From the NCBI RefSeq assembly GCF_000981895.1, contig NZ_LATD01000031.1, forward strand, positions 1-64,000: a stretch of 64,000 nucleotides of DNA, in the 5' to 3' direction. The notes beneath the pieces were generated by a model, which was given only the letters and a program-made list of their open reading frames with translations, ran no database searches and was not told where the DNA came from. Position 1 is the stretch's first letter. Each line of letters opens with the position of its first letter. Made by a program: the position numbers and the translations under genes. This DNA is from Streptomyces odonnellii. Its GTDB lineage: Bacteria; Actinomycetota; Actinomycetes; Streptomycetales; Streptomycetaceae. Shown piece after piece: positions 16,612-64,000 of the stretch.

Positions 16612-16632
16612 TACTATGAGGAGGTAAGGATC

Positions 16633-17001: not shown

Positions 17002-17120
17002 GCCGGGCCTCCTGCTCTTCGGCGCGGCAGGCGCCCTGAGCGGGCCCCACAACGGCAGGCCGGCCGCCAGGGACACGGCAAAGCCGCTCATGCAGTTTGA
17101 AGCAGCTTTGGAGTTCGCTG

Positions 17121-17345
17121 CTAGTCGCGGGCGTGGTGGCGGTTAGCGGCGGCGATGTTGGCCTGGCCCCAAGCGCAGCAGGCTGATGGCCAGGCTCCGC
17201 AGCGAGGCCATCACGCGGGGCGCGTTTCCTGTCCTGACCAGCGATTTATCCTCCTGATAAGTCACGTCGCGGACCCAGTGAAGCCGGTTTTCTATCTCCC
17301 AGTGGCCGCGGACCCAGGCCGCCAGGGTGGCGGGATCGGCGCCGC
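17121..17345 (-). pseudogene. ISAs1-family transposase C-terminal fragment
   Basis: Reads [33 protein letters not shown] and the conserved [21 protein letters not shown] one-base insertion near 17165 then shifts the end; the correct tail [14 protein letters not shown] is in another frame and stops at 17121. The N-terminal three quarters are missing. Confidence 0.85.
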
Positions 17346-17667
17346 GGTAGCTGGGGCCCCTGCGAGCTGGATCGTGACGGCGTACATGCTCGCCGGGACA
17401 ATCGCGGCGGTCCTGGCCGGCAAGTCCGGCGACACGTTCGGGAACAGGCGCATCTTCCCAGTAGGCGTCATGGTCTTCATCGCCGGATCTCTCGTCTGGC
17501 TTCTGGCCAACAACATGCCCGCCCTCACCCCAGGCCACGCCATGCAGGGGATGGGGACGGACGGGTCGGTGGTCACCCCCGGCGTGGTGTCCGGCGTCAC
17601 CGCGGTCATCGGCCCGCTGCTCGGCGGTGTGCTCACCGACCGACTGTCGTGGAAGCCGACCGGGTGA

Positions 17668-19905: not shown

Positions 19906-19979
19906 GGCGGTCCCTGGTCCCCTCCTAGGGTCGGCTGGAGCAATGTGGGTGCTCCAGTACCTCCTTGAGGAGATGAAGC

Positions 19980-31741: not shown

Positions 31742-31742
31742 C

Positions 31743-48640: not shown

Positions 48641-48733
48641 GACAACCCCTAGCGTTGACCATTGGTGTTTCCATGCCGCCATAGATGTACCACGTAGTTG
48701 CAGCGGCCTCTTTTTCGAGCTTAAAGTGTCGCC

Positions 48734-49387
48734 ATGACACCAAATCAATGGCCGACAGCGTTCACCGCTCGGGTCGCCCAAGCAATGCGGGAGGCGCGGA
48801 AGGTAGCCGGCCTCACCATGGCCGAGGTCGCGCAGGGCTGCGCCGACCGCGGCCTGCCTGAGATCAGCGAGCACTCCATGAAGAACCTGGAATCCGGCCG
48901 CAAGGCGAGTCTCACCATCGCGGACTTCGTGGTGCTGGCCGACGTCCTGGGCGCCCCCCCAGTGACCCTCCTCTTTCCCCTCGGGGCCTCCTCCACCGTG
49001 GAGGTCCTCCCGGGACGCGAGGAGTCCACATGGGACACGCTCGCGTGGTTCACCGGCGAGACGCCCTTGCACCAGCCTGCCCCCGAAGGCACACCCCGCG
49101 AGGTCCTCGACACCTTCCGGAACCACAGCTACCTGGTAGCCGCCGCAAGGACGTCCACCGCATTGGCCACGGAGAGACGCCGCCAGGCCAGCACCACCCT
49201 GGACCGGTCACGCCGGGCCGCTCTCCTGGAACGGGCCAGCGGCTACGAGGAGCACGCATTCGAAGACTGCGCCGAACTGCGGGCCTTCCGCGAACGCATG
49301 CGTGACCGCGACCTGGTACCGCCTGCGCTCCCCGCTGAACTGGCGCATGTCGACGACCCCGAGAACCAATCCGAGGACAACGAGTGA
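48734..49387 (+). CDS. XRE-family helix-turn-helix regulator
   Basis: 217 aa. N-terminal helix-turn-helix at residues ~12-75 (MREARKVAGLTMAEVAQGCA, MKNLESGRKASLTIADFVVL), then a longer region without a recognised domain. Overlaps the integrase gene by GTGA, so the two are co-translated. Probable control gene of the integration module. Confidence 0.82.
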   Translation: MTPNQWPTAFTARVAQAMREARKVAGLTMAEVAQGCADRGLPEISEHSMKNLESGRKASLTIADFVVLADVLGAPPVTLLFPLGASSTVEVLPGREESTWDTLAWFTGETPLHQPAPEGTPREVLDTFRNHSYLVAAARTSTALATERRRQASTTLDRSRRAALLERASGYEEHAFEDCAELRAFRERMRDRDLVPPALPAELAHVDDPENQSEDNE

Positions 49388-50997
49388 AGAAGGGCACGGT
49401 CTCCAGGCGCTGCGCCTGCCGCAACCCAGCCACGGGCAAGCCGTACGGGACGGCATGTCCGAAGGCATCCAACACCCGGCACGGCCTCTGGTACGTCATT
49501 CAGGAGCTTGTCCCCCGGCAGGACGGCACCCGCCACCGTTACCGCCGGGGCGGGTTCGAAACCGCGACCGACGCGAAGAATGAGCTGTCCAAAGTCGCGG
49601 CGCTCATGGCGATACCTGACGAGGACGACCCGGCCGGCCAACTCGTCATCAATGATCTCCTCGAAGCCTGCGCGGCGGCCAAGGAGCCCCTGCCGGATTA
49701 CGATGAGATTCTGCGTCGCTTCAAGACCGGCCAGACGCTCAATTCGAAAACGACCGTCGGAGACTGGCTCGACACCTGGCTCGCCGGGCGCAAGCGTCTT
49801 CGCGTCACCGGCTACAAGCGCTACGCCTGCGACGTCCGCGTCCACCTCAAGCCCCATCTGGGCAGCATCCGGCTGGACAAGCTGAGGGTCCACCACCTGA
49901 ACGCGATGTTCGACGCGATCAACGAGCGCAACATCGAGATCCAGGAACAGAACACCCAGCGCAAGGCGCTCCAGGCCGAACTCAACGCGACCCCGAACAA
50001 GGGCGCCGAGAACCGGGCCCGCAGGGCATCGCTCAGGGCCCAGCTCGACTCCATGCCCGCGTTCCGCCGGATCACCGGCCTCAACACCCAGCCGCACATC
50101 AGGGCCACGCTCAGGGCCGCCCTGAACGTGGCCATCGCCCAGCAGGTGATGTCCCCCTTCAACCCCGCCGAGCACGTCGAACTCCTTCCCGGCACCAAAC
50201 CGAAGGCCCTCATCTGGACCGACGAACGCATCGCCCGCTGGCAAGAGACCGGCGAGAAGCCCTCGCCCGTCATGGTCTGGACCCCCGAGCAGGCTGGCAC
50301 CTTCCTTGACTTCGTCGCGCAGGATCGCCTCTACATGCTCTGGCGGATCATCGCCTTCCGGGGTACGCGCCGGGGCGAAAGCTGCGGCGTCCGCTGGGAG
50401 GACCACTCCGCCAAGGCCCGCTCACTGGCCATCGCCACGCAGCTCATCCAAGACGGCTGGGACGTCCACGAGGGCGCTCCCAAGACCGACAGCGGCTTCC
50501 GCCTCATAGCCCTCGACGACGAGACCAACGAGGTGCTTCTCTCGCACAAGGCACGCCAGCAGCGGGAGCGGGAGGCGTGGGGCGAGGGCTGGCAGGACAC
50601 CGGGCGCATCTTCACCCAGGAGGACGGCTCCCTTCTCCACCCCGGCAAGGTCAGCGACCTCTTCGAGCGTCTGGTCACCGCCGCCGGCCTGCCGCCGATC
50701 CGGCTTCACGATCTCCGGCACGTCGCCGCCACGCTCATGCTCGCGGCGGGAGTGGACATCAAGGTCGTCAGCGAGACACTCGGCCACTCCGACACCCGCA
50801 TCACTCGCGACATCTACCAGGCGGTCCTGGACGACCTCGCACACGACGCAGCCGAGAAGGTCGTCCAACTCGTGCCCCGCACGCGCTCCCACCCGACCGC
50901 AGTTCCGGACAAGCAGCCAGTCGACGCGTCCCGTGCCCTGCCGAGGATGCACCCTCCAAAGCGCCCCTCGGTCAGGGAAGAGAAGGGCACCGCCTGA
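49384..50997 (+). CDS. Tyrosine-type site-specific integrase
   Basis: 537 aa phage-type integrase. Core-binding SAM-like domain at residues ~120-290 (TVGDWLDTWLAGRKRLRVTG, with an insertion rich in Gln/Ala/Arg). Catalytic domain ~300-500 with the first Arg in FRGTRRGESCGVRW, HDLRHVAATLML (H-x-x-R) and the GHSDTRITRDIY region carrying the final His and the nucleophilic Tyr. All catalytic residues appear intact. It points to a tRNA-Thr 3' fragment 400 bp downstream, the expected att position. Confidence 0.92.
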   Translation: MKKGTVSRRCACRNPATGKPYGTACPKASNTRHGLWYVIQELVPRQDGTRHRYRRGGFETATDAKNELSKVAALMAIPDEDDPAGQLVINDLLEACAAAKEPLPDYDEILRRFKTGQTLNSKTTVGDWLDTWLAGRKRLRVTGYKRYACDVRVHLKPHLGSIRLDKLRVHHLNAMFDAINERNIEIQEQNTQRKALQAELNATPNKGAENRARRASLRAQLDSMPAFRRITGLNTQPHIRATLRAALNVAIAQQVMSPFNPAEHVELLPGTKPKALIWTDERIARWQETGEKPSPVMVWTPEQAGTFLDFVAQDRLYMLWRIIAFRGTRRGESCGVRWEDHSAKARSLAIATQLIQDGWDVHEGAPKTDSGFRLIALDDETNEVLLSHKARQQREREAWGEGWQDTGRIFTQEDGSLLHPGKVSDLFERLVTAAGLPPIRLHDLRHVAATLMLAAGVDIKVVSETLGHSDTRITRDIYQAVLDDLAHDAAEKVVQLVPRTRSHPTAVPDKQPVDASRALPRMHPPKRPSVREEKGTA

Positions 50998-51010
50998 CAA
51001 CTATGCGACA

Positions 51011-51047
51011 AGGGGCTCCGGTCAGCGGGTATCTGACTGGAGCCCCT
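51011..51047 (+). terminator. Integrase terminator
   Basis: 15-bp stem with one mismatch around loop CGGGTAT (core GGTCAGCGGGTATCTGAC), 14 bp after the integrase stop. Confidence 0.8.
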
Positions 51048-51356
51048 CGGCGTTTCCCCACCGCGCTGTCGAACACCTCTCTGTCCGGCCCCTGCAATCC
51101 GCTTCGGGGGCTCAGCGCCACTCACCTGGCGGTCAACACGACAGCGTCGTCGCCCTCGCGATGCAACCGCACAGAGCGCCACACCGATTTGGGGGTATCG
51201 CACAAACCTGCTGCCTACGCGCCGAACTGCTGCTCACCAGCGCTGGCCACACCCGTGCAGCGGCTCTGCAGAAATGGCCGCACCTCGGCCGCACATCGCC
51301 GTCTGCAGGCTCCCGAGCCCTCCGTCGTTCCCGAGGAAGGATCACGGAAAGGCAAA
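51048..51356. other. Gene-free DNA between integrase and att site
   Basis: No coding sequence recognised. By position this should contain the arm and core regions of the attachment site, but no clear arm-type direct repeats were identified by eye. Confidence 0.4.
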
Positions 51357-51389
51357 AGGCCCAGGTCAGCGAGTATCTGACCTGGGCCT
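51357..51389. terminator. Second, near-identical hairpin at the att site
   Basis: Perfect 13-bp stem AGGCCCAGGTCAG/CTGACCTGGGCCT with loop CGAGTAT, preceded by AAAA and followed by CTTT, so it could act in both directions. Its centre GTCAGCGAGTATCTGAC differs by one base from the integrase terminator 345 bp upstream. Confidence 0.75.
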
Positions 51390-51392
51390 CTT

Positions 51393-51437
51393 TGGAGCCG
51401 CCTTCGGGATTCGAACCCGAGACCTACGCATTACGAG
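51393..51437 (-). other. tRNA-Thr(CGT) 3'-end fragment, putative att site
   Basis: Read on the minus strand: CTCGTAATGCGTAGG (anticodon loop and variable region), then CTCGGGTTCGAATCCCGA (T arm), then AGGCGGCTCCA. This is the 3' half of tRNA-Thr with anticodon CGT. Homology breaks off at about 51437, so no complete tRNA is present. Integrases of this kind insert into tRNA 3' ends, leaving such a copy at one junction of the element. Confidence 0.75.
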
Positions 51438-51662
51438 CGCTTGCAAGATCATCCCAGACGGTGTCGCGTGATGCCGCAGCATCTCGTTTCCGCTGCTCAG
51501 GAGGATTCAGCCACGATTCGCGTGACACTGTGTCCGCCCGAATGCCAGCGGGTCCGCTCACGCAGCGCTCACGCAAGTTAGGCCCGCAGGGCCCCTCTCT
51601 TCCTCGCCGCCAGGGCTGGAGACGAGGAAGAGAGTCAAACGATTGAAGCGGGACGCTGCTTC

Positions 51663-54600
51663 TCAGCCGATTAGTTCGGTGACCAGTTGATCCAGTTCTT
51701 CGGCGTCGGTAGAGCTGAGGAGAAAGTCGCGCAGGGCTCGGCGGATCTGGATGTAGCTCTTGCCGCCCTCGAACTTCAGCTCCGCGATCCGCCGTGCCTC
51801 CAGCTCACCGATCTCCGCGATTCGTGCGTGCTTGACGTCGACCGGGTCGAAGTCCGGGATGGGCAGCTCCCATACGGCCTTGTCGATATGCCGTTCGTCC
51901 TTGCCGTAGGACATCAACGGGCGCACGGCTTCGGTGAGGCGTGGGGTATTGAGTAGCGCAAGGAGGTACATGCCCTCCTGCCGGGTGGCGACCGTAGCCC
52001 AGTACAGCGCGTGCTCAATAACTGCGTTCGGATCGTCCACCAGCGCGGCGGACATGTGCATTCCAGAGGCACCGTAGACCACGCGTAGAGGCGCGCCGGG
52101 AAGCTGCTCGGTCAGCTTCTTCCGGAAGTTGAGCTGTTCGGCCAGGGAAAGCCGGGCACTGGAGCGGTTGTCATCCCAGAGTCGTTCGGCGTCGCGCCAC
52201 CATTTCGCCAGGTCCGGGTATCGGTCGAGGTGGTCATGCTCACCATCCATGATGGTATTCGTCCCCTCGATGGGCAGGACGACCTTGTCGGCACCGATGA
52301 TCCTGTAGGGAACGACGTGCTCCCCGAGCAAGATGGGCCGAACGAATTGCTTCTCGACCGTTCCTTCCCGGTCGGAGAGTTCCTTCCAAGGCTTCTTCTC
52401 CATAGCGCTGCGCTGTGAGCGGACCGAGACACGACCGCCGCCGAGCCCGAGGGGACTGGCAGCCTGTTCCTGGACGAAAAAGAGGACCTTGGGAACGACG
52501 GTAGCCCCCTGCCCAAACCGGTCCCGGTACGGCGAACTGATCAGCCCGTCCTTGGGGTAGCGCAGCTCACCTGCCTTCCGGGTGATCCAGCCCCTGGCGC
52601 GTTCCCAACGAGCGGCGCTCTTGGCGATCTTCCCCGTCCAGATTTCAGTCTGCTTAGGCAGAGCGACGGCGCTGTTGCCCTGCTGACCGATGGCGAGCGA
52701 GCGGCGGCGACCGAAGATGACGGCGGCAGCACGGGGGAAGAAGTGCGGACGTAGCCGACGCAGGTCCCAGGAGCCGGTGAAGTTGACCTTGACGGGGTGG
52801 TCGGGGTCGCTCCATTCTCCGCTGCGGAAGCCGGTCCAGTAGGGACGATCCAGCACGGGATTGGGGACGACGAAGGCGAAAGAACCGCCATCCCGTAGGT
52901 ACTGCTGGACAGCGCGAGCGATGAACAGGCCAGAAAGATCCTGATGGGTAGCGACCTCAAAGCCCTTCCACAGGCCGCGGGCCTGCATCATCTCCTTGAA
53001 GGTCGTCTGCATGTCGCTCGGCATGTGCCGGTAGGAAAGCCACGGCGGATTGCCGACGAGGACGTCAACACGGTTCTCGGCGCGGGACAGCCACATGGGG
53101 CGGGCCAGGTTGCGAACGTAGTAGGACCAAATGTGGTTGCGGCCCTCGTCGACCAAGTCACACAGGACACGGAAGTTGTCCGTCAGCTCTTCCCGGTCGT
53201 CCACGCCGGAGACCCCGTGTCGGTTGAAGAGGGCGCTGAGGGAGGGCAACTTGCCTTCAGCTCGGTGCGGGTCAGCTGCCTTGTCAGCGAGCTCGTTGAC
53301 GATCGAGTCAAAGCGGCTGGCATCTTGCAACAAGGCTTCGGAGAAGCGAAGTTCGTTGGTGAAGAGCTGGTTGCCCGTGCCGGTCTGGATGACGAGGTGG
53401 CCATGGTCGATGAGGTCAGTGCGCTGGTCCCACTGGAGGCTGTCGCCCAGGTAGACGGGGACGCTTATCGGGCCGCGCTCCTCAGAGGTAAGCGTTTCGC
53501 GGCCGATAGCGAGGAGATAGGTGACGCGGGCAAGGGCTACGGCGACAGGGTGGAGATCGATGCCTGCAACATGGTCGTGGAGCCCGTCCAGCGCCTCTCT
53601 CAGCGGCAGTCCGTTGTCCCGCGCGGCCGCCAGATAGCGGCGGACGCCGTGGAAGAGGAACGTGCCGGAACCACACGACGGGTCCATGATCCGCAGGTTC
53701 AGCGGATCGGGGACCGCCTCGGCCACCGTCGCTTCCGCCAACCAGTCTGGCGTGTAGTACTCGCCCTGCTTCTTGCGGGTCTCCGCGGCGATGACCGACT
53801 CGTACAGAACCTTCAGTACGTCATGCTCGACCCTTGACCAGTCGAAGCCTGCGAGGCGACGAGACAGGTCTTGGACAAATCCCTCGCCGCCCTCAATCTC
53901 AAGCGGCCAGCCGAAGAAGTCCGACTCGACCACACCCGAGATCCGTGCCTGTGTGAACAGCTGACCGTTGACTAGCGAGGCTGGCGGGGTGTCCTTCACG
54001 TCGATGCCCATCACCGCGTGGGCGATGATCGAGGCGGTATTCACGAGGAGCGTGTGCTCGATGAACAGATCGTCGCTGTCCTCGAACTGAGCGCCCAGGG
54101 CACTGCGCAGCAGCCGTGACCACAGATCGCGCTTCAGCTGGACGGTCGGCAGACTCTTGTTTTCCTCGTACAACGCGGCCAGTACCGTCTTGTCGATGGA
54201 GTGGGCGACGCTGTCCGCTCCAAGGCGGGTTGCGATGGCGTCCGGCGTGGGTGCCGCGCCCTCGGACGTCGCCAGGACACCTTCGAGCCACCGGACCAGG
54301 TCCAGCGCCTTGACGTTGCGCTCCCGCGCATCGAAATGGCTAACCTCGTTCAGCTCGTTGTTGACCAGCGTGTAAGCACGCCAGTCAGCGCCGTCGGTGA
54401 GGATGCCGACGTGCCGCCGCTCACGTTGCTCGGTACGGGCCCGCACATACTTCGCCAGTTGCGGGACCGCGTCCTTGCGAATCTTTGGGCGGCTAATGTC
54501 CTTCTTGACCTCTATTACGGTCGCGCCCATCTCAATGTCAATGCGGTGACCAGTGCCGCCACCCACCTGCGCTTCCAGCACGGGAGTCAAAAGATCCTGC

Positions 54601-54743
54601 TCGCCGAGATTGAGGTCCGCATCCAGCAGGAACTGGCGAATGTCTGCCTGCAGTGTCGCTTCGGCGCGGACAGCCTTGCGCTCGATGACCCGCTTGAACA
54701 CGGTTTCAAGCGCAGTAGGCGAAGGAGGGACTGAGAGCGTCAC
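51663..54743 (-). CDS. Type IIG-like restriction-methyltransferase fusion
   Basis: 1026 aa. N-terminal PD-(D/E)XK-like nuclease: D69 in HRIDIEMG and E78-V-K80 in VIEVKKD. Then a helical region, then an N6-adenine methyltransferase with SAM motif MDPSCGSGTFLFHG preceded by KKQGEYYTPDWLAE, and catalytic NPPW in VLVGNPPWLSYRH. The C-terminal ~400 residues are a probable target-recognition domain. One protein with cutting, modification and recognition fits type IIG; no separate S or R gene is adjacent. GTG 54743 with GGAG is chosen over the longer frame to 54887. It lies next to the att fragment, a common place for defence genes. Confidence 0.84.
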   Translation of the reverse strand: MTLSVPPSPTALETVFKRVIERKAVRAEATLQADIRQFLLDADLNLGEQDLLTPVLEAQVGGGTGHRIDIEMGATVIEVKKDISRPKIRKDAVPQLAKYVRARTEQRERRHVGILTDGADWRAYTLVNNELNEVSHFDARERNVKALDLVRWLEGVLATSEGAAPTPDAIATRLGADSVAHSIDKTVLAALYEENKSLPTVQLKRDLWSRLLRSALGAQFEDSDDLFIEHTLLVNTASIIAHAVMGIDVKDTPPASLVNGQLFTQARISGVVESDFFGWPLEIEGGEGFVQDLSRRLAGFDWSRVEHDVLKVLYESVIAAETRKKQGEYYTPDWLAEATVAEAVPDPLNLRIMDPSCGSGTFLFHGVRRYLAAARDNGLPLREALDGLHDHVAGIDLHPVAVALARVTYLLAIGRETLTSEERGPISVPVYLGDSLQWDQRTDLIDHGHLVIQTGTGNQLFTNELRFSEALLQDASRFDSIVNELADKAADPHRAEGKLPSLSALFNRHGVSGVDDREELTDNFRVLCDLVDEGRNHIWSYYVRNLARPMWLSRAENRVDVLVGNPPWLSYRHMPSDMQTTFKEMMQARGLWKGFEVATHQDLSGLFIARAVQQYLRDGGSFAFVVPNPVLDRPYWTGFRSGEWSDPDHPVKVNFTGSWDLRRLRPHFFPRAAAVIFGRRRSLAIGQQGNSAVALPKQTEIWTGKIAKSAARWERARGWITRKAGELRYPKDGLISSPYRDRFGQGATVVPKVLFFVQEQAASPLGLGGGRVSVRSQRSAMEKKPWKELSDREGTVEKQFVRPILLGEHVVPYRIIGADKVVLPIEGTNTIMDGEHDHLDRYPDLAKWWRDAERLWDDNRSSARLSLAEQLNFRKKLTEQLPGAPLRVVYGASGMHMSAALVDDPNAVIEHALYWATVATRQEGMYLLALLNTPRLTEAVRPLMSYGKDERHIDKAVWELPIPDFDPVDVKHARIAEIGELEARRIAELKFEGGKSYIQIRRALRDFLLSSTDAEELDQLVTELIG

Positions 54744-54899
54744 GGCGAGAGCTCCAGGAGCGTCAAGGTGTGTAGGGCAGCGAAGGGACGTCTGGTCCCG
54801 TTGGCCATTGTTGTGCAGGTGGTACGAGCCAGCACAGTCTTTGCTGGGCGGAGCCGCGCTGTCACCCTGGTTCAGCACGCTTCTCACGGCTCGTCGGCC

Positions 54900-55200
54900 T
54901 GCAGCACGCTGCTGCAGCGCTCATCCGCGTTGAAACGACCACCATCGAAGAGGTTGAAGGACCTCGTCCCCTTCTCCCGAGTTTGTGCCCGGTCCACGAC
55001 GAGTGGGCAGCCGATGGCCGGCATGACAGCCAGGTCCCCATGGACCTCGCACATGCTGGCTTGTAGAAAGACTCACCCTGCTCGACGTATCCGGCGGGGA
55101 TGCGCGGATATGGCGGCAGTCGTGCACATGAGGGCCCTGTAAGCAGCACTCGGTCGACGCCATCGAAGAAAAATACACCCGCTACCGCGCGGTGGGCCAT
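54900..55200 (-). pseudogene. NUDIX hydrolase, frameshifted
   Basis: Starts MAHRAVAGVFFFDGVDRVLL and IPAGYVEQGESFYKPAC, the first strand and GxxE-like start of a NUDIX box. The continuation VREVHGDLAVMPAIGCPLVV, then FNLFDGGRFNADE, lies in another frame. The REUEExGU core is not intact. Pseudogene between the methylase gene and the GluRS gene. Confidence 0.6.
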
Positions 55201-55356
55201 CTACGCTTCGTGCTCGTTCTCGGTGACGGACTCTAGCCTCCGACGGTGCCGAGCCTGCGTGCCGTGTCTGCCACGGACTGGGACGTCCGGAAAACGTCGG
55301 CACTGAGGTAGGTGGAGTGACCAGGGCGGGTGTCCGGCGTCGGTACCCTGGAGCGC

Positions 55357-56781
55357 ATGTCTACTGCCCCGGTTCGCGTTCGTTTCGCCCCGTCTCCGAC
55401 CGGCATGTTCCATGTTGGTGGTGCGCGGTCCGCTCTCTATAACTGGGCCGTGGCACGACAGTCCGGCGGCACGTTCGTCCTCCGGATCGAGGACACCGAC
55501 GCGGCCCGGAACAAGCCGGAGTGGATCGACGGGATCATCAGCGCGCTCGCGGCGATCGGCATCCACGGTGAGGACGCGGCCTTCGAGGGGCCGTACTTCC
55601 AGTCGCACAACGCCGACCGGCACAGGGAAGCGGGCCTGCAGCTCTTCGCGGCCGGGCGGGCGTACTACTGCGACTGCACCCGGGAGCAGTTGAAGGAGCG
55701 CACGGGGTCGGAGCATCTCGGGTACGACGGGTTCTGCCGGGAGCGGGGGCTGGCCTTCGAGGAGGGGCGGGCGCTGCGGTTCCGGACGCCGGACGAGGGT
55801 GAGACCGTGGTGCTCGACCTGGTCCGCGGCGAGCCGGCGTTCCCGAACAGCGCGATCGAGGACTTTGTGATCGCCCGTGGCGACGGGTCTCCGGTCTTCT
55901 TGATCGCCAACGTGGTTGATGACCTGGACGAGGGAATCACGCAGGTCATCCGGGGCGAGGAGCACCTGTCGAACACGCCGAAGCAGCAGCTGCTGTGGGA
56001 GGCGCTCGGCGCCCAGCCGCCGGTGTGGGCGCACCTGCCGGTGATCGTGAACGAGAAGCGGCAGAAGCTTTCGAAGCGCCGCGACAAGGTCGCTCTGGAG
56101 GACTACCTCGCGGAGGGCTTCCTGCCCGAGGCGATGGTGAACTACCTCATGCTTCTGGGCTGGGGCCCCGGCGGCGACCGGGAGATCATGCCGTACGAGG
56201 AGCTGGAGCAGCTCTTCCGCATCGAGGACGTCAACACCGCGCCGGCCTTCTTCGACGTGAAGAAGCTGACGGCGTTCAACGGCGACTACATCCGCGCGCT
56301 GTCCCCCGAGCAGTTCGCCAATGCCTGCACGCCGTGGCTCGTCGCCCCGTATGCGCCATGGGCCCCGGAGGCGTTCGACAAGGACCTCTTCGAGGTGGCC
56401 GCCTCGCTGGCCCAGACCCGACTGGCGCTGCTGTCGGAGATCACCAGCTACGTGGACTTCCTGTTCCTTGACGAGCCGGTCGAGGACGAGGCGTCATGGA
56501 ACAAGGCGATGAAGGCCGGTGCCGACGACATCCTGTCCGACGCCCGTGCCGAGCTGGCCACCGTCGCGGACTGGAAGGCGGACGATCTGAAGGGCGTTCT
56601 GCTTGCCGTCGGCGAGAAGCATGGCCTCAAGCTGGGCAAGGCCCAGGCGCCCATCCGGGTCGCGGTCACTGGCCGGACAATCGGACTCCCGCTGTTCGAG
56701 TCCATGGAGCTGCTCGGCCGGGACCGTGTGCTGGCCCGTCTGGACGCGGCGGCCAAGAAGCTGGCCGCCGCGCAGGCGTAG
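55357..56781 (+). CDS. gltX: Glutamyl-tRNA synthetase, divergent type
   Basis: Class I aminoacyl-tRNA synthetase that charges tRNA-Glu; cytosolic, 474 aa. The HIGH-equivalent is in [18 protein letters not shown] and the KMSKS-equivalent is KLSKRRDK. The Glu-binding/CP region ([18 protein letters not shown]) and the helical anticodon-binding domain (to residue 474) are all present. The sequence differs clearly from the usual Streptomyces GltX as I remember it (for example in the KLSKR context and the N-terminal segment), so this is probably a second copy. ATG 55357 with GGAG. Its stop is 7 bp from the end of the convergent biosynthetic operon. Confidence 0.9.
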
Positions 56782-56788
56782 CCGCCGG

Positions 56789-57775
56789 TCAGGCGACCTT
56801 CGCGAGAAGGTCGCCCCAGGCGTTGCCGAAGTAGTTCAGATCGAACCGGGCCAGCGCCTCGTACGCGGCCTTGGCCTCGGTCTTGCGCGCTGCCGCGCGT
56901 TCCCGGACCTGCGTTGGCAGGCGGCCGAGGTCCGGGGCCGACTGGCCGGTCAGTGCGGCAAGGTCGCCCAGACCCGCCACCGGGCGGATCAGGCAGGGCA
57001 GGCCGAGCAGTAGGGCTTCGGCCGCGCAGCGGCTCCAGCCCTCCCGCATCCGGGGGAGGAAGACGCCGACGTCGCAGGCGCGCAGCAGCCGCAGGTACCG
57101 CTCGCGCTCCACGTCGAAGTGGGCGCCGTCGAAGCCGATGGTGTTGCTGCCGCTGGTGATCACCCGTATCCCCTGAGTTTCGACCAGAGCTGCCGAGACC
57201 TCCTCGGTGCCCTTCCAGTGCACGGCCTTGCCCGCGTACACGCCGATCATGTTCGGGGCCAGACCGAATTCGTTGCGGCATTCGGTTCGGTCGAAGCCGC
57301 GGGCCCGCTCGACCTCGGTCATGTCGAAGGCGTTGTAGATCACCCGCACGTTGTCGACGCCTCGGGCCCGGAGGAAGTCCGCCCAGTACGGGGCTACACA
57401 GACCACGGCGGCGCACTGGGGCAGGACTCGGAACAGGTGCTCCCAGAGCATGGCCTCGACGGGAGCGGAGTCGTGCTGCAGCGGCTCGTAGTGGTGGAGG
57501 AGGAACACCGTGCGGGCCCGCATCTCCGGCGTGAAGAGCAGCAAGCTCAGGTCGTCCCACACGAAGGTGCCGGTGGTGCCGTCCAGCGCTCGGACCGTCG
57601 GGGCCAGGCGGGCGAGGTGGCGGAGCTTGCGCCAGCGGCGGACGCGATAGGTGCGCTTGTGGTCCGGGACCGTGCGCCACTCCACGTCGTCGGCCGTCGC
57701 CTCGTGAAGCATCCGCAGGTAGACCCGGCCGCCGGTCCGGCCGACCGGCTCCATCGAGTAGACGACCCGCTTCAC
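56789..57775 (-). CDS. GT4-type glycosyltransferase
   Basis: 328 aa, GT-B fold. N-terminal acceptor domain from VVYSMEPVGRTGGRVYLRML; C-terminal nucleotide-sugar domain with GKAVHWKGTEEVSAAL and the E-x7-E-like segment PRMREGWSRCAAEALLLGLP. No signal or membrane helix. GTG 57775 with AGGAGGT and a GTGA overlap with the HD gene. Last gene of the operon. Donor and acceptor are unknown; the context suggests decoration of a small molecule. Confidence 0.86.
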   Translation of the reverse strand: MKRVVYSMEPVGRTGGRVYLRMLHEATADDVEWRTVPDHKRTYRVRRWRKLRHLARLAPTVRALDGTTGTFVWDDLSLLLFTPEMRARTVFLLHHYEPLQHDSAPVEAMLWEHLFRVLPQCAAVVCVAPYWADFLRARGVDNVRVIYNAFDMTEVERARGFDRTECRNEFGLAPNMIGVYAGKAVHWKGTEEVSAALVETQGIRVITSGSNTIGFDGAHFDVERERYLRLLRACDVGVFLPRMREGWSRCAAEALLLGLPCLIRPVAGLGDLAALTGQSAPDLGRLPTQVRERAAARKTEAKAAYEALARFDLNYFGNAWGDLLAKVA

Positions 57776-58386
57776 GGACGTACCTCCTGTTGGCGTTGGA
57801 CGTACTCGGCGTGGAGCAGCGCGCGCATGGCCGCCAGGTGGGGGCTGAGGCCGCGGGCGGCGTCGGCGAGCGGGAGGTAGAAGTCCTCCAGGCTCTGGAG
57901 GAATCGCCGACGCCTGTCGACGTTGGGCGAGGCAGCGAGATCGCGCAGGTTGTGGAGGCGGTCGGCGAGCCGGACAAGGAGGTCCTCGGATGGGAGCGCG
58001 GCCTGCTTGAAGCGCCAGCTGGTTTCGTCGCCAACGGCCTTGGGACGCTGTTCGAGGCGGTGGTCGGCCGTCATGGCACGCAGGCGAGCGGTGAACCGGG
58101 CGCCGAGGTGCTGGACGAGTAGTGGCTCCGATTCGGGAGCCACTTCCAGGGCGTCGTGGAGGAGGGCGAGGATGAGAGTCTCGGGGTGGCTGACCCTGAT
58201 CTCCGTACGCAAGAGCGTGACGACGGCCAGCGGGTGCTCCAGGTACGGGGTGCCCTGATCGCGGGTGTGTCCGTCGTGGACGGTGAGGGCGAGGGTGCCG
58301 GCAACGCGGGCGCGGGACTGTTCGTCCGTGCCCCACGAGGCGGCGCCGAGGGCGGTCAGGACGTGGTCCAGGTCGATGGGGTTCAT
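57772..58386 (-). CDS. HD-domain phosphohydrolase (SpoT-like hydrolase fold)
   Basis: 204 aa. Metal-site motifs in order: YLEHPLAVVTLL (His), LALLHDALEVAPESEP (HD) and LVRLADRLHNLRDL (Asp), the layout of RelA/SpoT-type hydrolase domains without synthetase or regulatory parts. It could remove a phosphate or pyrophosphate from a nucleotide-like intermediate or ppGpp. ATG 58386 has GAGGTGAGG upstream; GTG 58395 overlapping the previous stop is an alternative. Coupled to both neighbours. Confidence 0.84.
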   Translation of the reverse strand: MNPIDLDHVLTALGAASWGTDEQSRARVAGTLALTVHDGHTRDQGTPYLEHPLAVVTLLRTEIRVSHPETLILALLHDALEVAPESEPLLVQHLGARFTARLRAMTADHRLEQRPKAVGDETSWRFKQAALPSEDLLVRLADRLHNLRDLAASPNVDRRRRFLQSLEDFYLPLADAARGLSPHLAAMRALLHAEYVQRQQEVRP

Positions 58387-58391
58387 CCGCC

Positions 58392-60107
58392 TCACCTCGT
58401 ACGGAGGGCCGTGGCACGGGGGTCGGACACGTGGTCGGCGAGCAGCAGGGTGTCCCCGACCGCGAGGGCGTCAAGGCCCAGGTCCGCCGTCGCCGCCACG
58501 GCTTGCTCGGCGGTCCGCAGGATCGGGGTGCCCTTTCGGTTGAACGAGGTGTTCAGCAGCAGCGGCAGTCCGGCGCGCTCGTGGAACTGCTCCAGGAGTT
58601 CACGCAGGCCCAGGTGGTCCGCGGCGACGGACTGGACGCGGGCGGTGCCGTCGTGATGGGTGACCGCGGCGATGCGGTCCGCTCGGCATCGGCGGACGTG
58701 GGCGACCCGGTTCATGAAGGGGTCGCCGGCCGACATGAACCACTCCGTGGCGTGCTCGGCGAGGACGGCCGGGGCGAAGGGGCGATACGAGGCTCGCTTC
58801 TTGATCGCGTTGAGGCGGTCTCGCGTGGCGGCGTGGCCGGGGTGGGTGAGGATCGAGCGGTGGCCGAGGGCTCGTGGCCCGAATTCGAGTTGCCCCTGCA
58901 CCCAGCCGACGATGTGGTGTTCCGCGAGCAGCGCGGCAACCGTGGGGGCCACTGTCTGCCCGAGGTCGGTCAACGCGCGGTATCCGGTCGGCACCGCCGT
59001 CGGCGGCAGGGCGCCCGGCCGTGGGCCCCAGGCCGCGTCGGTCGGCACGGGGAGGAGCCCCTGCCCGAGCTGGTAGTGCCAGCCGTACAGCGCGGCGCCG
59101 ACGGCGGTGCCCGCGTCGTGCGGGGCTGGGGCCACGAACAGGGTGTCGAAGCCGCTTTCGGCTGCCAGCTGACCGTTGAGGTGGGAGTTCAGGGCGCACC
59201 CGCCCGAGAACACCAACGTCGAGGCCCTGGTGAGCCGTTGCAGGTGGCGGGCGATGTGGACGACCGATTCGGCGAAGACCTCCTGGACGGCGGCGGCCAG
59301 GTCGGCCCGCTCGTCTTCGGGCTGCTCCGTGACGTTGTCAGCGGTCCAGGCCCGGCTACCGAGCAGCAGCGGTGTGCTGCTGTCCGCCGAGCCCCAGGGG
59401 TGATTGATGCGGACCTCGCCGTCGTCGCCGAGCCGGATCAGCTCGCGGATCTGGGCTCCGTAGCGCTGGGGATCGCCGAAGGCCGCGAGCGCCATCATGC
59501 TGCCTTCGGGCTCGTCGCCGGGCGGGATCACCCGCCGCGCGAGATTCCGGTAGAAGTGCCCAAGCGAGGAGTGGACGCGCCGAGGTCCGGCCGGGCTGGG
59601 GAGAACGGTCGGCATGCCCTGGTGGAGGCGGTCGATGCGATCGGGCCGCAGGTCGTACCCGGTGATGCGCTCGCGGCCAGGGCCGAAGTCGGAGCCGAGG
59701 GAGGAGCCGCCGGCGTCGATGACGAGGCCCGCCGCGTGCTCGTGGCCGGAGAGCAGGTAGCCGGAGAGCACGTGGGCCGTGTGGTGGGAGAGGAGGCGGA
59801 GATGTTCGCCGAGCGGGGCGGGCAGGAGGGCGGCGAGTTCGTCGCGCTCCTCGGCCAGCCACCAACCGGCGGCGGGGTTGGGGCGCATGGACGCGGCCCA
59901 GACGGCGTCGACGTCCTGCGGTTCGAGGCCGGCGGTTTCCAAGCACCACTGGAGCGCGCGGGTCGGGGCGGTGAGCGTGCCCTTTCGGGTGGGGTGGTTG
60001 TGTTTGACGCCACTCCAGCGTTCCTCCTCGGCCGCGTAGAGGCGGCCGTCGACGACTAAGGCGGCGCTGGTGTCGTGGTGGAAGTTCAGTCCGAGGACTG
60101 CGGGCAT
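58392..60107 (-). CDS. NodU/CmcH-type O-carbamoyltransferase
   Basis: 571 aa. The N-terminal Kae1-like domain with LLSHHTAHVLSGYLLSG and GLVIDAGGSSLGSDFGPG forms carbamoyl-adenylate from carbamoyl phosphate and ATP. The C-terminal YrdC-like-partner domain with FGPRALGHRSIL and LLNTSFNRKGTPI transfers the carbamoyl group to a hydroxyl. ATG 60107 with GGAGGT. Such enzymes tailor cephamycin, tobramycin and nodulation factors. It is the clearest sign that this operon makes a small-molecule product. Confidence 0.93.
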   Translation of the reverse strand: MPAVLGLNFHHDTSAALVVDGRLYAAEEERWSGVKHNHPTRKGTLTAPTRALQWCLETAGLEPQDVDAVWAASMRPNPAAGWWLAEERDELAALLPAPLGEHLRLLSHHTAHVLSGYLLSGHEHAAGLVIDAGGSSLGSDFGPGRERITGYDLRPDRIDRLHQGMPTVLPSPAGPRRVHSSLGHFYRNLARRVIPPGDEPEGSMMALAAFGDPQRYGAQIRELIRLGDDGEVRINHPWGSADSSTPLLLGSRAWTADNVTEQPEDERADLAAAVQEVFAESVVHIARHLQRLTRASTLVFSGGCALNSHLNGQLAAESGFDTLFVAPAPHDAGTAVGAALYGWHYQLGQGLLPVPTDAAWGPRPGALPPTAVPTGYRALTDLGQTVAPTVAALLAEHHIVGWVQGQLEFGPRALGHRSILTHPGHAATRDRLNAIKKRASYRPFAPAVLAEHATEWFMSAGDPFMNRVAHVRRCRADRIAAVTHHDGTARVQSVAADHLGLRELLEQFHERAGLPLLLNTSFNRKGTPILRTAEQAVAATADLGLDALAVGDTLLLADHVSDPRATALRTR

Positions 60108-60130
60108 GGTCGTGTACCTCCGGTCTGGGG

Positions 60131-60928
60131 TCAGACGGTGAGGGCAGGGACGGGCAGGAGGGCGGCGCCGGAGTCGGTGTACTCGTGGCAGCGCAGGCAG
60201 AACCGGAAGTGGTGGCCGCGGGGCGCGAACACCTTGGCCGCGAAGTCTTTGTCCCAGATGCTGAATTCGCTGTCTTCCTTCGCCATGGCGTTGAAGCAGC
60301 GGTAGCAGGATCCGTCCATCTCGATCATCAGATGCTGGTCGAGGTAGCGGTCGCACATGCCGCGCAGCTCGTTCGTCGGTTGGCCGACGTCGACGTGGTG
60401 CACGTGGTTCGTAACGTGGATGGCGCCGTACCTGTCGCACAGCCTCGCGAGCTGCGTGAGGCGCGAGGAACTGATGCCTTCCAGGACGCTGTTGATGACC
60501 ACGGTCTTGCCTGCCTCGCGGAGGCGGGGCACGACGGCGTGGACTTCGTCGTAGTTCTCGTGCTCGTCGTCGCAGCCGATGAGGACCTGGTCATACGAGC
60601 GGAGGGCGGCCTCCATGATCCGCTTGTTGCGGGCCAGGGTGATGGCGTTCGTGCCCAGGACCATGACCTTGTCCGGCAGGCGGGTGCGGGCCGCGTCACT
60701 GAGGGTGGGGAAGTCCCGGTGCACGGTGGGCTCGCCGCCGTTGATGTGCAGCTGCTGGAAGGGGATGGTCTCCAGCCTGGCCAGGATGGTGGAGAACAGC
60801 TCCAGGGACATGTTCTCGCCCTGGGCGCCGTCGGCGAAGATACAGAAGTCGCAGGACCGGTTGCACTTCGTCGTGATCTTGATCTTGGCCGTCTTCAGGG
60901 CGCGGGGCAGGGGCGCACGCGCGGGCAT
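60131..60928 (-). CDS. Radical SAM enzyme with SPASM-like C-terminal cysteines
   Basis: 265 aa. The radical-SAM cluster motif CNRSCDFC lies at residues ~19-26, and HINGGEPTVH follows as the SAM-binding GGE segment. C-terminal cysteines in SCYRCFNAM and FCLRCHEY suggest an auxiliary Fe-S cluster. ATG 60928 with AAGGAG is chosen over 60961. 16 bp from the nucleotidyltransferase stop and 23 bp from the carbamoyltransferase start. The substrate could be a peptide or a small metabolite; no precursor peptide was seen nearby. Confidence 0.88.
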   Translation of the reverse strand: MPARAPLPRALKTAKIKITTKCNRSCDFCIFADGAQGENMSLELFSTILARLETIPFQQLHINGGEPTVHRDFPTLSDAARTRLPDKVMVLGTNAITLARNKRIMEAALRSYDQVLIGCDDEHENYDEVHAVVPRLREAGKTVVINSVLEGISSSRLTQLARLCDRYGAIHVTNHVHHVDVGQPTNELRGMCDRYLDQHLMIEMDGSCYRCFNAMAKEDSEFSIWDKDFAAKVFAPRGHHFRFCLRCHEYTDSGAALLPVPALTV

Positions 60929-60944
60929 GGCGGGACTCCTTGCG

Positions 60945-62063
60945 TCAGGGGTGGTAGTCACCGGGGGTGAGACTGAGGAATTCCTGCACGGTGGACTTTT
61001 GCCGGTGCCAGAGCGCGAGGGTCGCGCGCAGCGTGTCGGCGGTGGTCGGTCCGGTGGGGATCAGCGCCGCCATCCGGACGGCCAGCCGCTGGGAGGAAGT
61101 GGTCTCGTCCGCCGCGAGCGCGTTCAGGATCTGCGCGGCGGCTCGGAGTTCCTTCGCCTCGCGCCGGATCAGGTAGTCCGTAGCCACGTTGGGCGGCGGG
61201 TCGAGGTAGTACAGCCAGCGGGCGATGCGTACGCGGAGCATTCCGGCGGCCATCACCCAGTCGGTACGGGCCTGTTCCTCGTCCTGGTCAGCGGGACGGT
61301 CCATGTCGGGGACGCGGCGCATGGCTGCTTCCAGGGCGACATGGGCCGTGCGAAGGAGACGACGCGGACTGCGGGGACGGGCGTCGGGTCCGTCTTCGGC
61401 GTGTCCGAGGAACAGCTCGGCGTACCTGTCGAGACCGTCCGGACGCCATTGTGTGAGGGCGGCCGTCTTGCCGGGGCAGCGGGTCCGTGTCGCGAGCGCG
61501 GCTGCGGCGAACCAGCACGGGGCGAGGTAGTGCCAGGCCACGCAGTGGCGCCGGTACGCGGCGATGTCCTCCACCACGTTGTCGGTGCTGTCCGCCGTCA
61601 GCTCGTATCGACCTCCCAGCCGCCCCTGGAGGATTCCCCGATAGAACCGCTCGTCGACTTCGCACCACGGCGCCATCTGCGCCCGGGACTTCCAGCGCTG
61701 GAAGTCCCGGGCGCTCCCGCTGATCAGCGACCAGGTCGCGAGCTCGGGCGCGGAGACGAGCCGTCCGTCCACCTCGGCCACGGTGAACGCGAAGCCGGGC
61801 GGGTGCTCCAGGAGACGTCGATGGGAGACCTCCCGGCCGACTGCGGCGGTGTGCGCTGCGGCCAGGCGGTGGTTCCACTCCTCCCAGTCCGCCGGGGCCC
61901 GGGGAACGAGGATCCGTACGTCGATGTCGGAGTGGGGAGCCAGCAGGTCGGCCGTCTGCCACTTGTGGGTGAGCATCACCGCGCCGACGCCGTGGGCTTC
62001 CAGTTCGCGCTCGTACAGCGCTCCCAGCCCCAGGTAGAGGGGCGGCGCTTCGACCACGGCCAT
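60945..62063 (-). CDS. Nucleotidyltransferase-fold protein
   Basis: 372 aa. The N-terminal nucleotidyltransferase motif is HSDIDVRILVP (D-x-D) after LTHKWQTADLL. The long helical remainder has no recognised domain. It overlaps the upstream radical-SAM gene as TGATG, with GGGGGA as ribosome site. Could nucleotidylate or activate a sugar, acid or aminoglycoside-like intermediate. Low similarity to well-known families by eye; specific reaction unassigned. Confidence 0.7.
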   Translation of the reverse strand: MAVVEAPPLYLGLGALYERELEAHGVGAVMLTHKWQTADLLAPHSDIDVRILVPRAPADWEEWNHRLAAAHTAAVGREVSHRRLLEHPPGFAFTVAEVDGRLVSAPELATWSLISGSARDFQRWKSRAQMAPWCEVDERFYRGILQGRLGGRYELTADSTDNVVEDIAAYRRHCVAWHYLAPCWFAAAALATRTRCPGKTAALTQWRPDGLDRYAELFLGHAEDGPDARPRSPRRLLRTAHVALEAAMRRVPDMDRPADQDEEQARTDWVMAAGMLRVRIARWLYYLDPPPNVATDYLIRREAKELRAAAQILNALAADETTSSQRLAVRMAALIPTGPTTADTLRATLALWHRQKSTVQEFLSLTPGDYHP

Positions 62064-63172
62064 CACCGTTCCCCCGTGGAGGCGCGGGCGCAGGCGGGCC
62101 GGGCTGCGTCCGTGGTCAGGAGCGGGAGCAGGGGCAGGACCGGGGTGCCTTCGGGGCGCTCCATCCGGTCCCAGCGCAGGTCGTAGTCGACGTAGTGGAA
62201 CCCTTGCCAGGCGTCGTTGGTGTTGCGGTCGAGCATGGCCTGGAAGAGGTGGGCGAAGGCGTCGCCGAGGGTGCCGTCGGAGAGGTGGGGCTTCAGAGGG
62301 ATGTCGCGGTTGTGGAGGACGCATGGGCGGGCCACGCCCGTGGGGGTGATCTTGATGCGGTTGGCGTCGGAGCAGGTGGCGCAGCTGGAGTTGGAGATGA
62401 AGCCGATTGAGCCCGCCCAGCCGTCGGGTCGGAGATACCGCCCGGGGCTGCGGACCCCGAGCTCCTCTCTGCGGACCTCGCCGGCGTCCGCGAACCACTC
62501 GTGGAGACGGTCGCGTACCTCCGCCTCGGGGATGAACTCGGTGTCGAAGAGTGCCTGCGCGGGGCCGATGTTCTGAAGTTCGATCAGCCGGACCGCGATG
62601 GGCAGGTCGCGGGCGAGCTCCGCCACAGCGAAGGCGTCGTCCAGGTAGGTGCGCTGGAGAACGCAGTTGATCTTCACGCGCAGGCCGAGGGAGAGCGCGG
62701 TGTCGAGGGTGCGTCGGGTGACGCGTGGGTCGCCGCCGCCCATGATCTCGGCGGACCGGGCCGGGTCGAGGCTGTGGAGGCTGAGGTTGAGGTACGTCAG
62801 GCCGGCTCGGTGGAGCTTCTCGACGCTCAGTCCGCGGCGCAGGTTGCCGTGGCTCGTCATGCCGATCGCGGCGTCGGGCCCGAGGCCGTCGGCCAGGCCC
62901 GCGATCACGTCGAGGATGTCTGCCCGTAGGGTCGGCTCCCCGCCGGAGCAGTGCGCCTTCCTGATTCCCCAGGCACCGGCCTCGGCGGCGATGGCGGCGT
63001 AGTCGGAGGCGGTCAGGGGGCGGTCCTTGTGACCGTAGTCCGGCATGCAGCGCGGCTTGCAGAACACGCAGTCCAGGTTGCAGAGCGAGTTCAGGGTGAA
63101 GGCCAGGTAGGGGTGGTTGCGGCCGGTCGCGGCGAAGGCGGCGGCCAGGTCGCGCTGGGTTGCGGTGGGCAT
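62063..63172 (-). CDS. MoaA-like radical SAM enzyme
   Basis: 369 aa. N-terminal CNLDCVFCKPRC cluster motif and HCSGGEPTLR. The C-terminal second-cluster motif CATCSDANRIKITPTGVARP (final Cys next) is laid out as in MoaA. The C-terminus lacks the GlyGly needed by true MoaA, and no other molybdopterin genes are near, so a GTP-cyclising role in cofactor synthesis is unlikely. More probably it is a relative acting on a nucleoside or other metabolite. ATG 63172 with GGAGG. Confidence 0.88.
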   Translation of the reverse strand: MPTATQRDLAAAFAATGRNHPYLAFTLNSLCNLDCVFCKPRCMPDYGHKDRPLTASDYAAIAAEAGAWGIRKAHCSGGEPTLRADILDVIAGLADGLGPDAAIGMTSHGNLRRGLSVEKLHRAGLTYLNLSLHSLDPARSAEIMGGGDPRVTRRTLDTALSLGLRVKINCVLQRTYLDDAFAVAELARDLPIAVRLIELQNIGPAQALFDTEFIPEAEVRDRLHEWFADAGEVRREELGVRSPGRYLRPDGWAGSIGFISNSSCATCSDANRIKITPTGVARPCVLHNRDIPLKPHLSDGTLGDAFAHLFQAMLDRNTNDAWQGFHYVDYDLRWDRMERPEGTPVLPLLPLLTTDAARPACARASTGER

Positions 63173-63175
63173 CGG

Positions 63176-64000
63176 TCAGCCTCCTACGAGGGGGGAGCGG
63201 GTAGCGGGCACCTCGGCCAGGCCGTTGAGCGGCTGGTCAGTGAGATGGCGGCGCAGGTTGTCGGCGAAGAACGCGACTGCCTCGTCCATGTACGTGCGGC
63301 TGAGCGTGGAACTCTTCGGCGTGAGGACGACCCGGGGGTGGAGCCGCAGCGGATGGCGGGCGGGCAGCGGTTTCGGGTCGAAAACGTCCAGGGCGGCGCC
63401 TCGAAGGTGGCCGCCATTGAGGGCGGCTAGGAGGGCCGACTGGTCGATGGTCGACGCGCGGCCGAGGTTGAGGAAGACGGACTTCGGCTTGAAGGCCGTG
63501 AAGAGGCCGTGGTCGAAGAAGCGGTCCGTGGCCCGGGTGGCGGGCAGCAGATCAACCACAACATCGGCGACGGCGACCGCCTGGTGCAGGGCCGACGTCT
63601 GCATCCATGTGATCCCGCCCTCGGCGGCCACCGGCGGCGTCCGCCGTACGCCGATGACGTCCATCCCGAAGGAGTTGGCCGCACGAGCGAGGTGCTCTCC
63701 GATTCTGCCGCAGCCGACGATGGTCATCGTCGCCCCCGCCAGGTCGAAGAACTCCTCGGCCAGGTCGTCCTTCCACCAGGTCCGGTTCCGCTGAGCGAGC
63801 TGGCTCATGAACAGTCCGCGGGAGAAACCCAGGACCATCCCCATGGCGTGCTCGGCCATGGGCCTGCCGTGGAATCCGTACGAGCGGGTCAGAGCCACCC
63901 CGGCGGAGCGGGCTTCGGCGACGGGCAGATGGTCGGTGCCGGCCGCCGGGGAGGCAATCCACCTCAGATGAGGCGCGCCCAATAGCCACGACGGCTCGAA
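63176..64000 (-). CDS. D-2-hydroxyacid dehydrogenase-like protein (partial)
   Basis: The 5' end lies beyond the window; 274 residues are visible. NAD-binding GCGRIGEHLARAANSFGMDV with the following VIGVRR (Arg suggests NADP preference), NLGRAS with the catalytic Arg, and DVFDPKPLP. The usual catalytic His in the TPHxxG segment is replaced: here it reads VVLTPKSSTLS. Normal oxidoreductase activity is therefore doubtful, or the chemistry is altered. 3 bp before the MoaA-like gene, so part of the same operon. Confidence 0.82.
   Translation of the reverse strand, partial: FEPSWLLGAPHLRWIASPAAGTDHLPVAEARSAGVALTRSYGFHGRPMAEHAMGMVLGFSRGLFMSQLAQRNRTWWKDDLAEEFFDLAGATMTIVGCGRIGEHLARAANSFGMDVIGVRRTPPVAAEGGITWMQTSALHQAVAVADVVVDLLPATRATDRFFDHGLFTAFKPKSVFLNLGRASTIDQSALLAALNGGHLRGAALDVFDPKPLPARHPLRLHPRVVLTPKSSTLSRTYMDEAVAFFADNLRRHLTDQPLNGLAEVPATRSPLVGG

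Follow-up and report, generated by a model that had tools for sequence, protein, structure and literature searches.

The producers of albomycin, indolmycin and mupirocin carry insensitive second aminoacyl-tRNA synthetases (aaRSs), and natural inhibitors with matching resistant second copies are known for the seryl, isoleucyl and tryptophanyl enzymes, according to the excerpts of PMC9437257 used here; for glutamyl-tRNA synthetase (GluRS), the table excerpt of the same paper lists YadB only. The albomycin cluster pairs a radical S-adenosylmethionine (SAM) enzyme and a carbamoyltransferase with a second seryl-tRNA synthetase (SerRS), AbmK (PMC9032320, in part). GluRS is mentioned in an excerpt of PMC7916415 as a target of synthesised microcin C derivatives only, the same text noting that bacteria lacking glutaminyl-tRNA synthetase rely on GluRS for Gln-tRNA too, and its best known inhibitor in E. 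coli is glutamyl-sulfamoyl-adenosine (excerpt of PMC4393105). In Streptomyces odonnellii, a stretch of 64,000 nucleotides (the window) contains most of an operon of eight genes that lies tail to tail with gltX2, the gene for a second, full-length GluRS. Because radical SAM enzymes, a carbamoyltransferase and a second aaRS here repeat the logic of albomycin, the operon is proposed to be a cluster for an undescribed GluRS-inhibiting antibiotic, and this reading is probably correct. The product would be a carbamoylated, glycosylated, nucleotide- or aminocyclitol-like compound, probably a glutamyl-adenylate mimic, with GltX2 providing self-resistance.

The window makes up the initial 64 kb of the 69,744-base contig NZ_LATD01000031.1 (GCF_000981895.1; genome 8.28 Mb). 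An initial annotation had described seven overlapping or closely spaced minus-strand genes that continue past the window. Both points stand: the open reading frames (ORFs) are present at the positions given, all but the nucleotidyltransferase with domains found by Pfam, and the flank completes the dehydrogenase gene and adds a second glycosyltransferase gene. The operon runs head to tail on the minus strand from contig position 65481 down to 56789, in the order listed below. Several neighbours overlap stop to start by 4 bp and the others are separated by gaps of at most 23 bp; the overlap at rSAM2 is 17 bp if its start lies at 60961.

64171-65481 of the contig, beyond the window end, minus strand: GT4a (GTa), second GT4-family glycosyltransferase and first gene of the operon, EX7E motif kept
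63176-64174 (63176-64000 in the window), minus strand: D-2-hydroxyacid dehydrogenase-like protein (HADH), 332 amino acids, Pfam 2-Hacid_dh_C (7.6e-43)
62063-63172, minus strand: MoaA-like radical SAM enzyme (rSAM1), 369 amino acids, Pfam Radical_SAM and Mob_synth_C
60945-62066, minus strand: nucleotidyltransferase-like protein, 373 amino acids, SDxD motif, predicted AadA-type fold
60131-60961, minus strand: twitch/SPASM-type radical SAM enzyme (rSAM2), 276 amino acids, or 265 from the ATG at 60928, Pfam Radical_SAM
58392-60107, minus strand: O-carbamoyltransferase of the NodU/CmcH/TobZ type, 571 amino acids, Pfam Carbam_trans_N and Carbam_trans_C
57772-58395, minus strand: SpoT/MESH1-like HD hydrolase, 207 amino acids, Pfam HD_4 (6.5e-15)
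56789-57775, minus strand: GT4b (GTb), GT4-family glycosyltransferase, 328 amino acids, Pfam Glyco_transf_4
55357-56781, plus strand: gltX2, second GluRS, full length, Pfam tRNA-synt_1c and Anticodon_2, tail to tail with the operon across a 7 bp gap
55339-55356, plus strand: short conserved element directly upstream of gltX2, seen in the sequence and in an alignment of 11 upstream regions

The earlier description of a biosynthetic operon of nucleoside, sugar or cyclitol type fits what was tested, with the metabolite itself a prediction. It was incomplete in that the operon has eight genes and the convergent gltX2 had been overlooked, and it is the linked second GluRS that hints at what the product may target and how it may act.

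A scan of one genome per species over 84,980 species, with the rSAM2 protein as query, gave 42 loci: 40 in Streptomyces and one each in Planomonospora and Nonomuraea. When every operon protein was compared with these loci by tblastn, the six core genes were found in 42/42, in the same order and orientation. GT4a and GT4b were each found in 41, both being missing from the Planomonospora locus L044. The set includes L045, a poor assembly with several broken frames and core genes in pieces, and L014, where the contig end cuts GT4a; some locus gene models were built mechanically. The initial annotation had made its proposal depend on the genes occurring together in other genomes, as they do here. 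The gene set recurs far beyond chance and is an accessory, sharply defined cluster.

The second GluRS gene belongs to the same pattern. It lies beside the operon in all 42 loci (tblastn), as a partial or split copy in L033 and L045. In S. corallincola (L016) the pair is still kept even though roughly 4.5 kb of inserted sequence, including a DDE_3 transposase gene (16416-17465), separates GT4b from gltX2. Exactly two gltX genes, one linked and one housekeeping, were found at E ≤ 1e-30 in ten of ten operon genomes and in G303, G366 and G512; the linked copy is 72-96% identical to the GltX2 of the window in the ten genomes and 80-90% in the other three. Two copies are also present in the genome of the window and in G011, G022, G067 and G077. 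G006 gave three rows because its gltX2 is split, and G615 in this check is the Planomonospora genome already counted.

Sequence divergence separates the two copies. The housekeeping GltX of the window genome is 54% identical to its GltX2, and Streptomyces housekeeping enzymes are 51-55% identical to it among the matches listed, except for G031 at 43%. The linked copies of Planomonospora and Nonomuraea reach 84% and 83%, their housekeeping copies 69% and 68%. G512, a member of a third family in which a search of 394 genomes of the class also found the complete operon, has a linked GltX2 at 81% and its own GltX at 45%. In a maximum-likelihood tree of 54 proteins, drawn from 95 rows with L152 and many others left out, the GltX2 proteins, whether linked to the operon or orphan, group in a single clade (95/98) that excludes the housekeeping enzymes of Streptomyces and of Planomonospora/Nonomuraea. 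Since the linked copies stay close across families while housekeeping GltX diverges, and since the GltX2 clade stands apart, gltX2 follows the operon and not the species.

These observations make it very improbable that gltX2 and the operon are neighbours through shared ancestry alone, with no functional link. Inside one genus, convergent neighbours may remain adjacent for no functional reason, but this pair persists in three actinobacterial families whose housekeeping GltX has diverged and across the transposase insertion of L016, no operon lacks gltX2 (0/42), and past gltX2 conservation for the most part ceases. The last point comes from a flank comparison of 39 sequences including the window, out of 44 (the motif did not find L044, and four others had flanks too short to use). 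The inner 4 kb was in common with the window in 38/38 loci and was common to all 1482 ordered locus pairs, while the 4 kb beyond gltX2 was in common with the window in 0/38. The conserved island ends at gltX2.

Distribution within the genus gives the same association. Among 392 Streptomyces genomes the nucleotidyltransferase is present in 19 and a GltX2-class gene in 29, at E-value limits of 0.001 and 1e-160, respectively, on which these counts rest. gltX2 occurs in 18 of the 19 operon carriers, as marked by the nucleotidyltransferase, against 11 of the 373 others (Fisher p 1.3e-22, only a guide because the genomes are related); the single carrier without gltX2, G444, is a 55% complete genome. 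The nucleotidyltransferase search of the 394 class genomes gave four strong matches (the own genome, G067, G512 and G615). Two further matches at E 0.005-0.01 were taken as noise. Among plasmid records, distant relatives of this protein were limited to weak matches below 31% identity, and MoaA was the annotation of four of the five. In the Planomonospora genome GTb was not found at E ≤ 1e-10 and a GTa homologue (47%) lies on another contig, so that glycosylation may have been lost or moved there. An rve-type transposase gene stands upstream of the operon in this locus (L044, 1270-2262).

The surroundings (20 kb) of all 11 Streptomyces gltX2 genes without the operon were also fetched. In L144 the regulator gene that flanks the operon and a 5' fragment of the adjoining ATPase gene lead directly into the last 90 codons of GT4b and an intact gltX2; L086 retains the final 56 codons of GT4b next to gltX2. 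Judged from these remnants, the two loci are deletions of the operon that spared gltX2. In Streptomyces G440 (L153:12079-14311 and L145:469-10319), gltX2 closes another group of same-strand genes, which encodes a radical SAM/SPASM enzyme, a nucleoside phosphorylase, an MFS transporter, a GDSL hydrolase, a haem-oxygenase-like enzyme, a carbamoyltransferase and an ATP-grasp ligase. Its carbamoyltransferase differs from that of the operon (33% identical), and this set may be another cluster that makes a GluRS inhibitor.

Two other surroundings of GltX2-class genes deserve description. A methionyl-tRNA synthetase gene lies close to the orphan gltX2 of Streptomyces G404 (L147:5709-10780), and the two possibly form a small group of resistance-type synthetases. 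Outside the genus but in the same order, a GltX2-class gene of G092 (L088:3326-14886) stands beside a radical SAM gene, an ORF with flavin adenine dinucleotide (FAD) oxidoreductase and nucleotidyltransferase matches, an amidase gene and a TrwC-type relaxase gene. Given the relaxase, this gene may travel on a conjugative element.

The main competing explanation is that GltX2 is itself biosynthetic, or has a dual role, supplying Glu-AMP or Glu-tRNA to build a glutamyl group into the product. The strict linkage of gltX2 to the operon and the retained tRNA-binding domain agree with such a function, for which there are precedents in AbmK of albomycin and VlmL of valanimycin (described in a section of PMC9032320) and in SbzA (PMC9437257, in part). 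However, no match to a tRNA-dependent transferase, an ATP-grasp ligase or a class II aaRS homologue was found among the eight operon proteins, and gltX2 outlives the deletion of the operon in L144 and L086, sits in a different set in L145 and occurs elsewhere without operon genes, all of which resistance fits better. A biosynthetic GltX2 is on these grounds unlikely, although self-resistance and a biosynthetic role could both be true, as for AbmK.

GltX2 retains intact HVGG and KLSKR motifs in the window and differs from the housekeeping enzymes in its predicted glutamate pocket. The pocket position that we take to be Tyr187 of the Tth enzyme is Phe179 in GltX2: Phe is found in 41/41 operon-linked rows, 10/10 orphans, both distant rows and G512, and Tyr in 27/27 sampled housekeeping enzymes (25/25 from Streptomyces, 2/2 from Planomonospora/Nonomuraea). 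The operon-linked rows are the window and 40 named loci, L033 and L045 having been dropped as short (split frames). A further 11 alignment rows ('op2') overlap in part with the genomes of the named loci, and the independent count is therefore 41. A Tyr contacting the glutamate C-gamma is listed for GluRS in an excerpt of PMC7387524; no paper naming both Tyr187, the Thermus pocket residue, and GluRS was found in the literature searched. Position 190 is Glu in 40 of the 41 operon-linked rows, Met in 25/25 Streptomyces housekeeping enzymes and in all four single-copy native GluRSs of two other families, and Gln in the two Planomonospora/Nonomuraea housekeeping rows. In the alignment, Glu190 and other positions separate GltX2 from housekeeping and native enzymes alike.

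Upstream of gltX2, TACCCT at 55344-55349, just before the start, looks like a -10 box at the spacing that leaderless transcription would need. This suggests that gltX2 has a promoter of its own, perhaps a leaderless one. A by-eye inspection of the 11 aligned upstream regions for a leader peptide or attenuator found little conserved further upstream.

Within the operon, rSAM1 shares with MoaA, the GTP (guanosine triphosphate) 3',8-cyclase, the Radical_SAM and Mob_synth_C domains. It scores 171.4 bits against TIGR02666 (moaA), under the equivalog cut-off of 284, and in the HMMER alignment its second-cluster CX2C lies three residues out of register. The basic triple of MoaA is R17, R266 and R268 (named in the title of PDB 2fb2). 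Arg272 and Lys274 stand at the positions of R266 and R268 and do not vary across 43 rows, while the R17 position is lost (Ala24 in the window), so that the full triple is not conserved. In 19 aligned rows no C-terminal GG was found, the tail that MoaA carries. From these differences we infer that the substrate of rSAM1 is a nucleotide other than GTP, or is handled differently from GTP in MoaA.

The nucleotidyltransferase-like protein has no Pfam or NCBIfam match, so that the label given in the initial annotation finds no backing from sequence families but does from the predicted structure. Its AlphaFold model (pLDDT 84) matches the AadA/ANT(3'')(9) aminoglycoside adenylyltransferases (VIA-align Z 10.9, root-mean-square deviation 4.1 over 215 aligned residues), with which it also shares the SDxD motif; S46, D47, D49 and E87 are invariant in 43 rows. 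It differs from AadA in being about 110 residues longer, in its 14% identity and in belonging to an operon instead of being a stand-alone resistance gene. The enzyme is predicted from this model to adenylylate a sugar or cyclitol hydroxyl. rSAM2 has the CX3CX2C motif and invariant C219, C222, C255 and C258 in 43 rows. Its model (pLDDT 70) resembles SuiB (Z 15.8), SkfB (15.5), BlsE (15.2), BtrN (14.9) and EpeE (14.8), which are tied, with no single relative standing out.

The carbamoyltransferase has both Pfam domains and the conserved motifs of the TobZ/GdmN/NodU O-carbamoyltransferases (HHTAH, DAGG and GGCALN, invariant in 42 rows), and its PDB matches are GdmN, decarbamoylnovobiocin carbamoyltransferase and TobZ. 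Judged by domains and motifs it looks active; its gene contains one TTA codon. In the HD hydrolase H54, H80, D81, E84 and D145, which include the metal ligands, are invariant, as is Arg254 of HADH, and the EX7E glutamates of GTb are invariant in 41 rows. A length filter removed two HADH rows and one row each of the HD hydrolase, carbamoyltransferase, GTa and GTb from these alignments. As the eight genes include no dedicated sugar-nucleotide genes, the donors of the two glycosyltransferases probably come from primary metabolism.

A pathway can be proposed in which rSAM1, with two of the three basic positions of MoaA kept as Arg/Lys, would remodel a nucleotide and the HD hydrolase would remove a phosphate or pyrophosphate. 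HADH and rSAM2 would oxidise or reduce a carbon of a sugar or acid, and the two GT4 enzymes would attach sugars from primary sugar nucleotides. The carbamoyltransferase would cap a hydroxyl with a carbamate, which possibly imitates the side chain of glutamate. Addition of adenosine monophosphate (AMP) by the AadA-like enzyme would give the glutamyl-adenylate mimic. GltX2 would then charge tRNA while the housekeeping enzyme is blocked.

Several observations weigh against this proposal. gltX2 is transcribed convergently and lies outside the operon. Nine of the 11 operon-less carriers (L145, L147 and seven others) hold no remnant of the eight operon genes within 20 kb, and the outer 4 kb is common to 78 of the 1482 ordered locus pairs and so is not always different. 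All four single-copy native GluRSs have Phe at position 179, for which reason Phe179 was rejected as a pure resistance mark; it is a mark of the class and not proof of resistance. The nucleotidyltransferase is assigned by fold alone, with a Foldseek probability of 0.99 but an E-value of 0.09. The ED pair of guanosine tetraphosphate (ppGpp) hydrolases is Glu followed by Val or Ile in 42/42 rows of the HD hydrolase. In HADH an invariant Lys302 occupies the position of the catalytic His, and the Glu of the common DVFxxEP motif is Lys in 32 and Arg in nine of 41 rows. With these changed catalytic positions, the substrates or the chemistry of both enzymes have probably changed.

No exporter gene was found among the eight either, which would also suit a non-antibiotic metabolite such as a signal, a cofactor or a cell-surface nucleotide sugar, with GltX2 serving as a GluRS specific to stress or development and controlled by the NsdA-type regulator nearby. 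Upstream of the operon lies a gene for a small anti-sigma-type ATPase and, divergent from it, genes for the NsdA-family regulator and a DAO-family oxidoreductase. An NsdA-family homologue is present in the fetched flank of 36 of the 42 loci, one of them weak (33%, L044). NsdA family members also regulate antibiotic production, however, and the patchy spread (19/392 Streptomyces genomes, 42 loci at species level) looks like that of an accessory cluster. The deletion in L144 leaves the flanking regulator, and distant families hold the operon with gltX2. A non-antibiotic product is thus distinctly unlikely, and a GluRS-directed antibiotic with GltX2 as its resistance enzyme remains the preferred reading.

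A broader claim is more tentative, with chances somewhat short of even. The operon may be the first recognised cluster for a natural GluRS-targeting antibiotic, a glutamyl-adenylate mimic made by an undescribed combination of a MoaA-like radical SAM enzyme, an AadA-like adenylyltransferase and a carbamoyltransferase. GltX2 would mark a family of such clusters, including the chemically different one in L145/L153, and Phe179-type GluRS would be a resistance gene that also spreads without a cluster. If the reading as a GluRS-directed antibiotic is right, the target is named before the compound is known, a resistance gene is available for mining further such clusters, and radical SAM and AadA-like enzymes are paired in one pathway in a way not described before. 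Since many of the sequenced carriers are named strains, S. varsoviensis (L018) and S. bikiniensis (L020) among them, the proposal is directly testable.

Other parts of the window are distinct from this locus. Beyond gltX2, the region 48725-54920 contains an ORF with a sub-threshold HTH_31 match, a phage-type integrase (49339-50994) and a type IIG restriction-methylation enzyme (51666-54920, PADLOC); it probably forms a mobile or defence island of its own. A tRNA gene search of the window with ARAGORN was negative. Further away are a Tn3-type transposase gene (Pfam DDE_Tnp_Tn3) at 10427-11203, an M20 peptidase/amidohydrolase pair at 19977-22561, and an open stretch with Peptidase_S9 and Beta-lactamase (PF00144) domains at 34006-38142, beside an oligopeptide ABC transporter (31680-33698).

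In a literature search that left subscription papers largely aside, no characterised cluster with this gene set was found, in keeping with the initial annotation, which had not recognised the combination, and no natural GluRS inhibitor was found; glutamyl-sulfamoyl-adenosine is a synthetic analogue. The second-aaRS resistance strategy is already known, and this enzyme combination was not found in the literature searched. The biosynthetic chemistry of indolmycin and mupirocin is unrelated to that of the operon, and their target enzymes are others. Their producers resemble the present carriers in that an insensitive second tryptophanyl- or isoleucyl-tRNA synthetase protects them (excerpts of PMC9437257). 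Albomycin differs in its target, SerRS, and in a carbamoyltransferase that acts on cytosine N4, as set out in part of PMC9032320. Its siderophore genes, N-methyltransferase and aaRS-like AbmF are without counterpart among the eight operon genes. The operon, unlike the albomycin cluster, has two GT4 enzymes, a MoaA-like radical SAM enzyme, an AadA-like nucleotidyltransferase, an HD hydrolase and a 2-hydroxyacid dehydrogenase. What the two have in common, on the same excerpted account of albomycin (PMC9032320), is a radical SAM enzyme, a carbamoyltransferase and a second aaRS together, with chemistry of the nucleoside type.

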